From assembly GCF_900129225.1 (NCBI RefSeq), contig NZ_FQUG01000005.1, positions 1 to 64,000 of the forward strand: a stretch of 64,000 nt of DNA, in the 5' to 3' direction. A model generated the notes under the pieces. It worked only from the letters and a program-made list of their open reading frames with translations, ran no database searches and was not told the origin of the DNA. Positions within the stretch are counted from its first letter, which is position 1. The number at the start of each line of letters is the position of its first letter. Origin of the DNA: Schwartzia succinivorans DSM 10502. GTDB taxonomy: Bacteria; Bacillota; Negativicutes; Selenomonadales; Selenomonadaceae. Position numbers and translations under genes: made by a program. Below are positions 60,082-61,884 of this stretch, piece after piece.

Positions 60082-60183
60082 TATTTGTTATGGCGGGGGA
60101 TTTACATCTGACCATAGACTTTGATATACTGATAATGGTTTTACAGCTCATTCCTTAGTGAGCCGGACCAAAATATTAAATTT

Positions 60184-60292
60184 CATATTGTGAACCATGA
60201 AGAGAAGGCGAGAGACAAGCTCGATGACCCTTCAGCAACCTGCCGCGCGTGCAAACGCGGTAAGGTGCTAAAGCTTGATCGATGGGAATATG
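60184..60292 (+). promoter_or_regulatory. SAM (S-box, SAM-I clan) riboswitch
   Basis: Core elements in order: P1 CATATT (60184-60189) pairing with AATATG (60287-60292), AGAGAAGGCGAGAGACAAGC, TCGATGACCCTTCAGCAACC and GGTAAGGTGCTAA. These fit the S-box rules: AAGG/CCTT and GAG/CTC stems, the GATGA internal loop, and the AAGGTGCTAA J3/4-P4 strand. A downstream terminator and the repeated GATGGG allow an exclusive switch. It may be the SAM-I/IV variant. Confidence 0.88.
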
Positions 60293-60304
60293 CGTAGATA
60301 CTGC

Positions 60305-60330
60305 AAGCCCATCAGACGATGGGCTTTTTT
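60305..60330 (+). terminator. Riboswitch expression-platform terminator
   Basis: AAGCCCATC, AGAC, GATGGGCTT, then TTTT. GATGGG at 60281-60286 could pair with the same CCCATC instead, an antiterminator. Confidence 0.85.
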
Positions 60331-60367
60331 GCTTGCGTCTCTTTATGGTCGAAAGGAGACGCTTTTT

Positions 60368-61099
60368 ATGTTGGAAAAAATGTTGATTCACGTACCCCAT
60401 GCTTCCCTCTATATCCCTGAGGAGTACATCCCGGACTACGATTTGGAGGTGCTGAGCCACGAGATGCTTGTTATGACGGACTGGTACTGCAACGAGCTTT
60501 TTGACTGCGAGGCAGAGATGGTAGCCATGCAGGTCAGCCGTCTCGTCTGTGACGTGGAAAGGTTCCGTGACGACAAGGACGAATCAATGAGCCGCCTCGG
60601 TATGGGACTGTATTACACGAAGAGCTCGGACAAGAAGGTATTCCGCAAGTTTTCCGAGGAAAAGAGGGAAGAGATTTTGACACGTTATTATGACCCGCAC
60701 CACGGAAGACTTGCCGCTGCTGTGGCAGAAAGGCTGAAAACTCACGGAGAATGTCTCATCATCGACGGCCATTCCTTCTATCCTGTGCCGCTGCCCTATG
60801 AGCTTGACCGCGAGGATAACCGCCCTGATATCTGTATCGGTACTGATGACTTCCATACGCCGAAGGCTTTGGTGGAGAAATGGGTGGATTACCTGAAGGG
60901 CTGCGGACTCTCGGTGAAAATCAACTCCCCCTTTGCAGGGGCGCTTGTTCCTATGGAGTATTACATGCGTGATGCCCGCGTCGGTTCCGTAATGATTGAG
61001 GTAAATCGCAGACTTTATATTGATGGGAAGGGACAGAAGACCGCTGATTTTGACAGGGTGAAGAAGGTTCTTAATGACATGATTCTGATGGCGGAATGA
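60368..61099 (+). CDS. N-formylglutamate amidohydrolase family protein
   Basis: 243 aa. The FGase (PF05013) signatures are present: IHVPHASLYIPEEYIPDYDL-type start, SRLVCDVERFRDDKDES, the DGHSFYP motif, and MIEVNRRLYID with Glu. The fold is a zinc-dependent deformylase/amidohydrolase. ATG 60368 has AAAGGAGA upstream, and earlier in-frame codons lie in the riboswitch terminator. SAM-riboswitch control implies a role in methionine or one-carbon metabolism rather than histidine breakdown; the true substrate is unknown. Confidence 0.86.
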   Translation: MLEKMLIHVPHASLYIPEEYIPDYDLEVLSHEMLVMTDWYCNELFDCEAEMVAMQVSRLVCDVERFRDDKDESMSRLGMGLYYTKSSDKKVFRKFSEEKREEILTRYYDPHHGRLAAAVAERLKTHGECLIIDGHSFYPVPLPYELDREDNRPDICIGTDDFHTPKALVEKWVDYLKGCGLSVKINSPFAGALVPMEYYMRDARVGSVMIEVNRRLYIDGKGQKTADFDRVKKVLNDMILMAE

Positions 61100-61209: not shown

Positions 61210-61884
61210 TTGCCCGTGTTTGATATGAAGAAATTGTGTATGATTATGATTGCCGCGTGGGTCCTGTTTTTGGGGCACACGGCGGAGGCTTACAGGCTGG
61301 ATGTCCGCACGCCCGGCGGGCAGACGGTATCTATCCTCAGACTTAGGATTGTGCTTTTTGTCAAGGATTATTATGGCGACAGCAAGTTCAGTCTGTTTTA
61401 TGATGAGAATGAGCGTGCGCTTTATTTTGATTGTCATGGAAGCGATGACGGGAAAATTCATTTTCAGGAGAGGAGGGAGTCTATCCCTGATACGGTAGAC
61501 AGGATGGTTCGGGGAGAGCTTGACCGTATAGGCAACCGTCCGATTGATAAGATATATTTGATGTCCTGCTATCAGGCGGCGCGGCATAAGAAGAATCCGG
61601 AGGAGCTTTATATCGGAGAATCGAAGGTTTTGGGCTGCCCCATCGTGGAAATGTTTCAGTTTCACGGTGTGCTGACTTCTGTATGGGAGAGCAATAAAAC
61701 TCATTTCTATGCAATCTGCTATGACGGTGATTATAACGATTTGTCTGATAAGTTTTACAGGAAAAATTTCAATGCAGTAATGGAGGCTGCGAAGGATGCC
61801 AAGCTGAAGTGGGCAGTCAGGATGCTGCGGAATATCAAAAAAGGAAGACTGAAAACCCATGATTTAGAGGAGTTGTTTGAGTAA
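61210..61884 (+). CDS. Exported protein with possible His/Cys dyad (clan CD-like)
   Basis: 224 aa from TTG 61210, which has AAAGGGGGA 8 nt upstream; ATG 61225 is the next in-frame Met. A signal peptide (LCMIMIAAWVLFLGHTAEA) comes first. Then a hydrophobic strand ends in YFDCHGSDDGK (His-Gly) and another ends in IDKIYLMSCYQAARHKK (Ser-Cys). The paired strand-HG and strand-xC layout is that of clan CD peptidases (caspase, CHAT, gingipain folds). No other domain. Peptidase activity is a hypothesis. A terminator follows at 61904. Confidence 0.6.
   Translation: MPVFDMKKLCMIMIAAWVLFLGHTAEAYRLDVRTPGGQTVSILRLRIVLFVKDYYGDSKFSLFYDENERALYFDCHGSDDGKIHFQERRESIPDTVDRMVRGELDRIGNRPIDKIYLMSCYQAARHKKNPEELYIGESKVLGCPIVEMFQFHGVLTSVWESNKTHFYAICYDGDYNDLSDKFYRKNFNAVMEAAKDAKLKWAVRMLRNIKKGRLKTHDLEELFE

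Follow-up and report, generated by a model that had tools for sequence, protein, structure and literature searches.

In Schwartzia succinivorans DSM 10502, a candidate SAM riboswitch (S-box) stands directly before a gene of the N-formylglutamate amidohydrolase (FGase) family, a family otherwise placed in histidine breakdown. This arrangement raises the question of whether the switch is genuine and, if so, which reaction its target catalyzes. A preliminary description of the locus had proposed a methionine-linked substrate, for example N-formylmethionine. We analysed the locus in a window of 64,000 nucleotides (positions 1 to 64,000 of contig NZ_FQUG01000005.1) and compared it with related genomes. 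All features of the leader and the FGase gene given below lie on the + strand.

A SAM riboswitch precedes a single-gene unit

The SAM riboswitch family RF00162 matched positions 60192-60288 with 48.9 bits, which exceeds its gathering score of 44.4, at an E value of 3.5e-8 over all 64 kb. The alignment spans the whole model, the SAM model wins its clan, and this is the only riboswitch found at that threshold within the window. Since an outer P1 helix can form between CAUAUU (60184-60189) and AAUAUG (60287-60292), it is reasonable to let the aptamer start at 60184, and we place it at 60184-60292 around the Rfam core. The SAM riboswitch announced for this interval in the preliminary description was thus borne out by the covariance model. 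A chance match to the SAM model was rejected, as the element is conserved in 12/12 relatives. A promoter-like site for the leader RNA (60101-60130; TTTACA, 18, TATACT with TG) reached 10/12 in a consensus scan and is weak, two such sites being present in the sequence as compared with 1.6 expected in shuffles.

The FGase open reading frame runs from the ATG at 60368 to the stop at 61099 and encodes 243 residues (PF05013, E 4.3e-50; 171.3 bits versus a cut-off of 28.9). Upstream of the switch, on the same strand, lies a pyridoxamine kinase gene (PRK07105, 59215-60081), which ends 110 bases 5' of the aptamer; the gene downstream of the FGase (61210-61884) matched no Pfam family. Given these neighbours, no gene besides the FGase is evident in the unit, which we regard as monocistronic, as had been claimed. 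An operon with a methionine gene was likewise rejected on the identity of the S. succinivorans neighbours, and the FGase genes of family f2 have other, unrelated ones. Taken as a whole, the locus very probably carries a functional SAM switch acting on the FGase gene.

Of note, S. succinivorans contains a second, partial FGase sequence (G000:C9:157926-158378; L004, L017) that repeats the final 151 residues with 98% identity. It is followed by a copy of the window gene 61210-61884 and adjoins a stretch of N in the assembly. This is a recent segmental duplication, of which the upstream part and any second S-box are hidden in the gap.

The pairing is conserved in Negativicutes

We searched 380 Negativicutes genomes for PF05013 and found an S-box just upstream of each of the 12 full-length FGase genes, which belong to two families and comprise that of S. 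succinivorans, five from Anaerovibrio (genus g3) and six from family f2 (G217 and five of g47). The survey thereby extends the pairing that the preliminary description had reported from one locus. Outside this count fall the partial duplicate of S. succinivorans, an FGase fragment that G185 carries at the edge of a contig, and, in family f25, four weak partial hits, these four having no S-box upstream. The G185 fragment (G185:C99; L016:8-202) covers residues 1-65 with 74% identity and one TGA, and is possibly a decaying copy in another genus.

The five Anaerovibrio orthologues, recovered by contig search, are 67 to 71% identical to the S. succinivorans enzyme and each has an RF00162 match at the same upstream distance. 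Scores upstream of the relatives' FGases ranged from 47.4 to 55.7 bits, the exception being G217, with a canonical box of 87.9 bits. In a sample of 398 genomes spread evenly over the phylum, no S-box was found in the flanks of about a dozen FGases checked outside Negativicutes. Two of the FGases from outside Negativicutes, in G476 and G523, belong by the tree to the same subfamily as the switch-controlled enzymes; both genomes have S-boxes elsewhere, and at the FGase genes neither a weak S-box nor any other Rfam element was detected up to E 5. No further subfamily members were found around G523 (4 genomes) or G476 (10 genomes). The pairing likely arose at least twice, with a canonical box in G217 and a box lacking the P4 helix elsewhere, and the S. 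succinivorans and g47 pairings may share one origin. No paper on an S-box paired with an FGase was found in the literature searched.

The controlled enzyme is unlikely to serve histidine breakdown

Both its Pfam score and its fold place the enzyme in PF05013. The AlphaFold model (pLDDT 92) superimposes on the FGase-family structure 2q7s with a TM score of 0.83, and the structure matches are led by the FGase-family entries 2q7s and 2odf; poly-gamma-glutamate hydrolase comes next, followed by aspartoacylase, which hydrolyses N-acyl amino acids. The fold and the conserved H, D, H, E and R positions are shared with the histidine-pathway enzyme HutG. Yet the S. succinivorans protein scored 64.5 with the HutG equivalog TIGR02017, far below the cut-off of 278.75, and the subfamily as a whole scored 41-76 bits; the other Bacillota FGases tested also miss this cut-off, so that the score by itself cannot tell the two groups apart. 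Urocanase (PF01175) was absent from all 12 genomes with a paired FGase, and was detected in three comparison genomes and in the controls. The enzyme further differs from HutG in its control by a SAM switch and in forming a clade apart from other Bacillota FGases (split 100/100 in the tree). On the urocanase survey and the HutG score we rejected a histidine-pathway role, which is unlikely.

The positions likely to be involved in metal binding or catalysis (H11, D38, R58, D62, R65, H112, D133, H135, E211 and R214) are common to the subfamily and to other Bacillota FGases. Several near-invariant positions differ between the two, among them H8/S, E64/N, Y83/K, Y199/H and M209/Q (subfamily residue first). 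A substrate lacking a carboxylate in its side chain might explain why a near-invariant lysine has been lost, in a comparison with a group that is not established HutG.

S. succinivorans has two S-boxes, upstream of metK and of the FGase gene, and the Anaerovibrio genomes also have two each, at metK and FGase. In G217 there are four: the canonical one at the FGase gene and those at metK, at a metQ-like lipoprotein gene and at a metNIQ-type transporter operon (an ABC transporter ATPase, a permease and two NLPA-type lipoproteins, named from sequence). By its gene content, the G217 set looks like a regulon for methionine uptake and SAM synthesis with the FGase as its fourth member.

A methionine-linked substrate is likely because the pairing is conserved and the histidine pathway is missing, and we consider a methionine- or SAM-linked role of the FGase probable. 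The reading that we favour, with reasonable rather than high confidence, is that of a SAM-responsive OFF switch on a one-gene unit encoding a methionine-linked N-formyl or N-acyl amidohydrolase, not HutG. The product would be a metal-dependent amidohydrolase of a PF05013 subfamily, made when methionine or SAM is short, and it would most likely cleave an N-formyl (or other N-acyl) amide to yield methionine or a precursor. The proposal of a methionine-linked rather than a histidine-linked substrate therefore held in its general form, with the conserved pairing, the urocanase survey and the G217 regulon in its favour. N-Formylmethionine is the best single candidate for the main substrate, and we put it forward tentatively, with the balance somewhat against it. 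Formylmethionine deformylase activity is known as EC 3.5.1.31. The activity proposed here is the same, as a proposal only, and no paper tying a PF05013 protein to it was found in the literature searched. Methionine auxotrophy as the driver is unsupported: a methionine synthase-type gene (PF02574) is present in 11/12 genomes, that of S. succinivorans included, and since nearly all of them have one, the FGase need not be the sole source of methionine.

We considered the possibility that the FGase hydrolyses a different amide feeding methionine, SAM or sulfur supply, such as N-acetylmethionine, a dipeptide containing methionine, or an N-formyl compound that would release formate into the one-carbon pool for methionine synthesis. 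The switch evidence is equally compatible with such substrates, the fold is common to aspartoacylase, poly-gamma-glutamate hydrolase and aminopeptidases, and the near-invariant positions that set the subfamily apart from other Bacillota FGases leave room for a substrate that is no formyl amino acid. PF05013 members are, however, annotated as deformylases and no neighbour gene indicates a particular alternative substrate, and we regard this possibility as rather unlikely, if still a serious one.

P4-less boxes also precede other genes

The box at the S. succinivorans FGase gene belongs to a form without P4, described below, that has multiplied in g47 to up to six copies per genome. Several of the g47 copies (L097, L098, L100, L102, L104, L105) stand before genes for which no connection with methionine can be seen. 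These are an HTH gene with an alpha-CTD (RNA polymerase) gene and a VWA/YfbK-type gene behind it, a gene whose product has a weak SEC-C motif, and several encoding proteins to which no family could be assigned. A P4-less box is thus in itself no proof of a methionine role, which weakens the premise of the preliminary description that methionine or cysteine genes lie downstream of nearly every S-box.

These copies lend some colour to the idea that the enzyme is an ordinary N-formylglutamate deformylase, as the Pfam family name has it, which acquired its S-box by chance promoter capture and has no role in methionine metabolism. This is improbable, considering that urocanase is absent in 12/12 genomes, that the score lies far under the HutG cut-off, and that the subfamily is preceded by S-boxes of two kinds, the canonical one in G217 and the P4-less one in all others.

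Some further features of the P4-less boxes were observed. The switch is expected to be ON at falling SAM, which is odd ahead of HTH, alpha-CTD and VWA genes. In G219 (L120), an HTH-like gene that appears related by eye also follows a box. In g47, truncated metK copies (114 residues) lie close to P4-less boxes at L097:8045-8389 and L101:2557-2901, which suggests duplication of DNA from the metK region.

The aptamer is a variant of SAM-I without P4

We aligned the leaders of the variant boxes with canonical S-boxes. The inner P1 consists of CCAU (60195-60198) paired with AUGG (60282-60285) and is invariant in the 12/12 variant leaders aligned. The pseudoknot PK-1 is formed by CAAG (60216-60219) and CUUG (60274-60277), and no P4 helix is found between PK-1 and the P1 3' strand: in the Rfam alignment the positions of the P4 hairpin show up as a deletion, and P4 is missing from all aligned variant leaders. 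The P4-less form with a fully paired CAAG:CUUG pseudoknot accounts for 11/12 Negativicutes FGase switches. The FGase boxes of S. succinivorans, Anaerovibrio and g47 are nearly identical to each other and unlike canonical boxes, having GAG:CUC instead of GGG:CCC in P2b, and CAAG:CUUG in PK-1 where canonical boxes have CUGG with CC(U/A)-type partners (in a register that we assume for canonical SAM-I), both sides having changed together. The tandem GA of the k-turn is retained, and the adjoining pair is C.C instead of G.A. P2a and P3 covary within the P4-less group, 97.6% of cells being able to pair compared with 24 to 36% in slid controls. When R1, a model of the P4-less form, was run across Negativicutes, the variant boxes scored at least 79.9 bits and all other listed boxes at most 61.3.

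More distant members were found in G159 (L121:1501-1606) and G215 (L119:1501-1607). They retain the architecture with different helices and show compensatory changes in P2b and PK-1, the latter being CAGU:ACUG in G159; both precede proteins without a convincing family.

As judged from these alignments, the switch is a P4-less variant of SAM-I and not a plain member. It shares with RF00162 the P1 helix, a P2 split by a k-turn into P2a and P2b, PK-1, P3, the GCAACC and AAGGUGC core and a terminator-type OFF platform, and it scores above the RF00162 threshold. It departs from that class in lacking P4 and with it the four-way junction, in its all-Watson-Crick PK-1, in P2b, in an inner P1 of only four pairs, and in a second hairpin that hides the Shine-Dalgarno sequence and is apparently opened by the P1 5' strand.

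SAM-IV has no P4, and has PK-1, a four-pair P1, PK-2 and P5, and a four-nucleotide turn in P2 (PMC6890682). The variant resembles it in the missing P4, the presence of PK-1 and the four-pair P1. In contrast to SAM-IV, it retains the six-nucleotide k-turn strand of SAM-I, it has no room for PK-2 (the P3 loop is very short in g47), and its downstream hairpins are a terminator and a Shine-Dalgarno hairpin, not P5. By inspection, PK-2, P5 and the four-nucleotide turn are lacking, and the variant is set apart from SAM-IV as described in PMC6890682. SAM-I/IV has an undivided P2, no PK-1 and a P4 (PMC6890682, PMC2864571) and was rejected on architecture, the variant being its opposite in all three respects by the published descriptions. 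No description of a P4-less SAM-I form was found in the literature searched, which is weak evidence of its absence.

The G of AAGAG, the AA of GCAACC and the UGC of GGUGC, which we take to be the SAM-contacting core of SAM-I, are invariant in 12/12 aligned leaders, and the aptamer presumably binds SAM. It is very improbable that the missing P4, the C.C pair in the k-turn and the unrelated genes downstream of the g47 boxes mark a natural variant that senses another ligand for a regulon not concerned with methionine, because these contact nucleotides are invariant, the SAM model wins its Rfam clan and a canonical box precedes the same gene in G217.

The expression platform seems to use both P1 strands

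Downstream of the aptamer, a terminator scan identified an intrinsic terminator at 60305-60330, AAGCCCAUC-AGAC-GAUGGGCUU (hairpin 60305-60326) followed by a U run, which is conserved in relatives. Both in a fold of the truncated leader and in the modelled ON state, GAUGGG (60281-60286), in the P1 3' strand, pairs with CCCAUC (60308-60313) as an antiterminator, a layout that is standard for OFF switches. The scan also found a second hairpin at 60335-60362, GCGUCUCUUU-AUGGUCGA-AAGGAGACGC, which hides the Shine-Dalgarno sequence (60353-60359); it is retained in the Anaerovibrio leaders and, with a changed sequence, in G241.

In addition, ACCAUGAAGAGA (60194-60205) is complementary over 12 contiguous pairs to UCUCUUUAUGGU (60338-60349). 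The former comprises the P1 5' strand and J1/2, and the latter is the anti-Shine-Dalgarno strand, that is, the first arm of the second hairpin. In S. succinivorans this long-range helix, assigned to the ON state, amounts to -16.8 kcal/mol, a value reached in 0/1000 plain letter shuffles, in which dinucleotides were not kept. A better control is provided by the other g47 leaders that share the aptamer strand, and the complement is missing in most of them. The helix is significant in 5/5 Anaerovibrio leaders and in G241, G243 and G232; it is weak in G234, and G235 has lost it. The complement is also present, near the ribosome site, in the G215 and G159 leaders, which precede other genes.

The free fold of the S. 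succinivorans leader (-68.3) contains the long-range helix, and the folds constrained to the SAM-bound and ON states came to -61.4 and -68.1, respectively. For G241 and the majority of the Anaerovibrio leaders, folding without constraints gave the OFF form, in which the Shine-Dalgarno hairpin is present. Since the free folds differ between leaders, the ON/OFF balance varies from species to species, and the dual mechanism has the status of a prediction.

In the modelled folds, the expression platform seems to use both P1 strands, and we give this dual use a slightly better than even chance. At low SAM, the P1 3' strand would pair through GAUGGG with CCCAUC in the 5' arm of the terminator and allow read-through; in the same RNA, the P1 5' strand with J1/2 would pair with the anti-Shine-Dalgarno strand and free the ribosome site. 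At high SAM, the aptamer would hold both P1 strands, allowing the terminator to form, and in RNA that escaped termination the second hairpin would conceal the ribosome site. The most specific version of our proposal is that a P4-less branch of SAM-I, with separate jobs for its P1 strands (3' for antitermination, 5' for unmasking the ribosome site), governs a methionine-salvage amidohydrolase acting as a deformylase on free N-formylmethionine. In this complete form we think it unlikely.

Implications

Few clues to the role of a misnamed enzyme are better than its riboswitch context. In the present case it moves a PF05013 subfamily from histidine breakdown towards methionine supply, with a short list of substrate candidates. 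The leader provides a natural minimal SAM-I aptamer without P4, which is useful for asking what purpose P4 serves, and it would, if the prediction is right, represent a case in which a single aptamer acts on termination with one strand of its P1 helix and on translation with the other.
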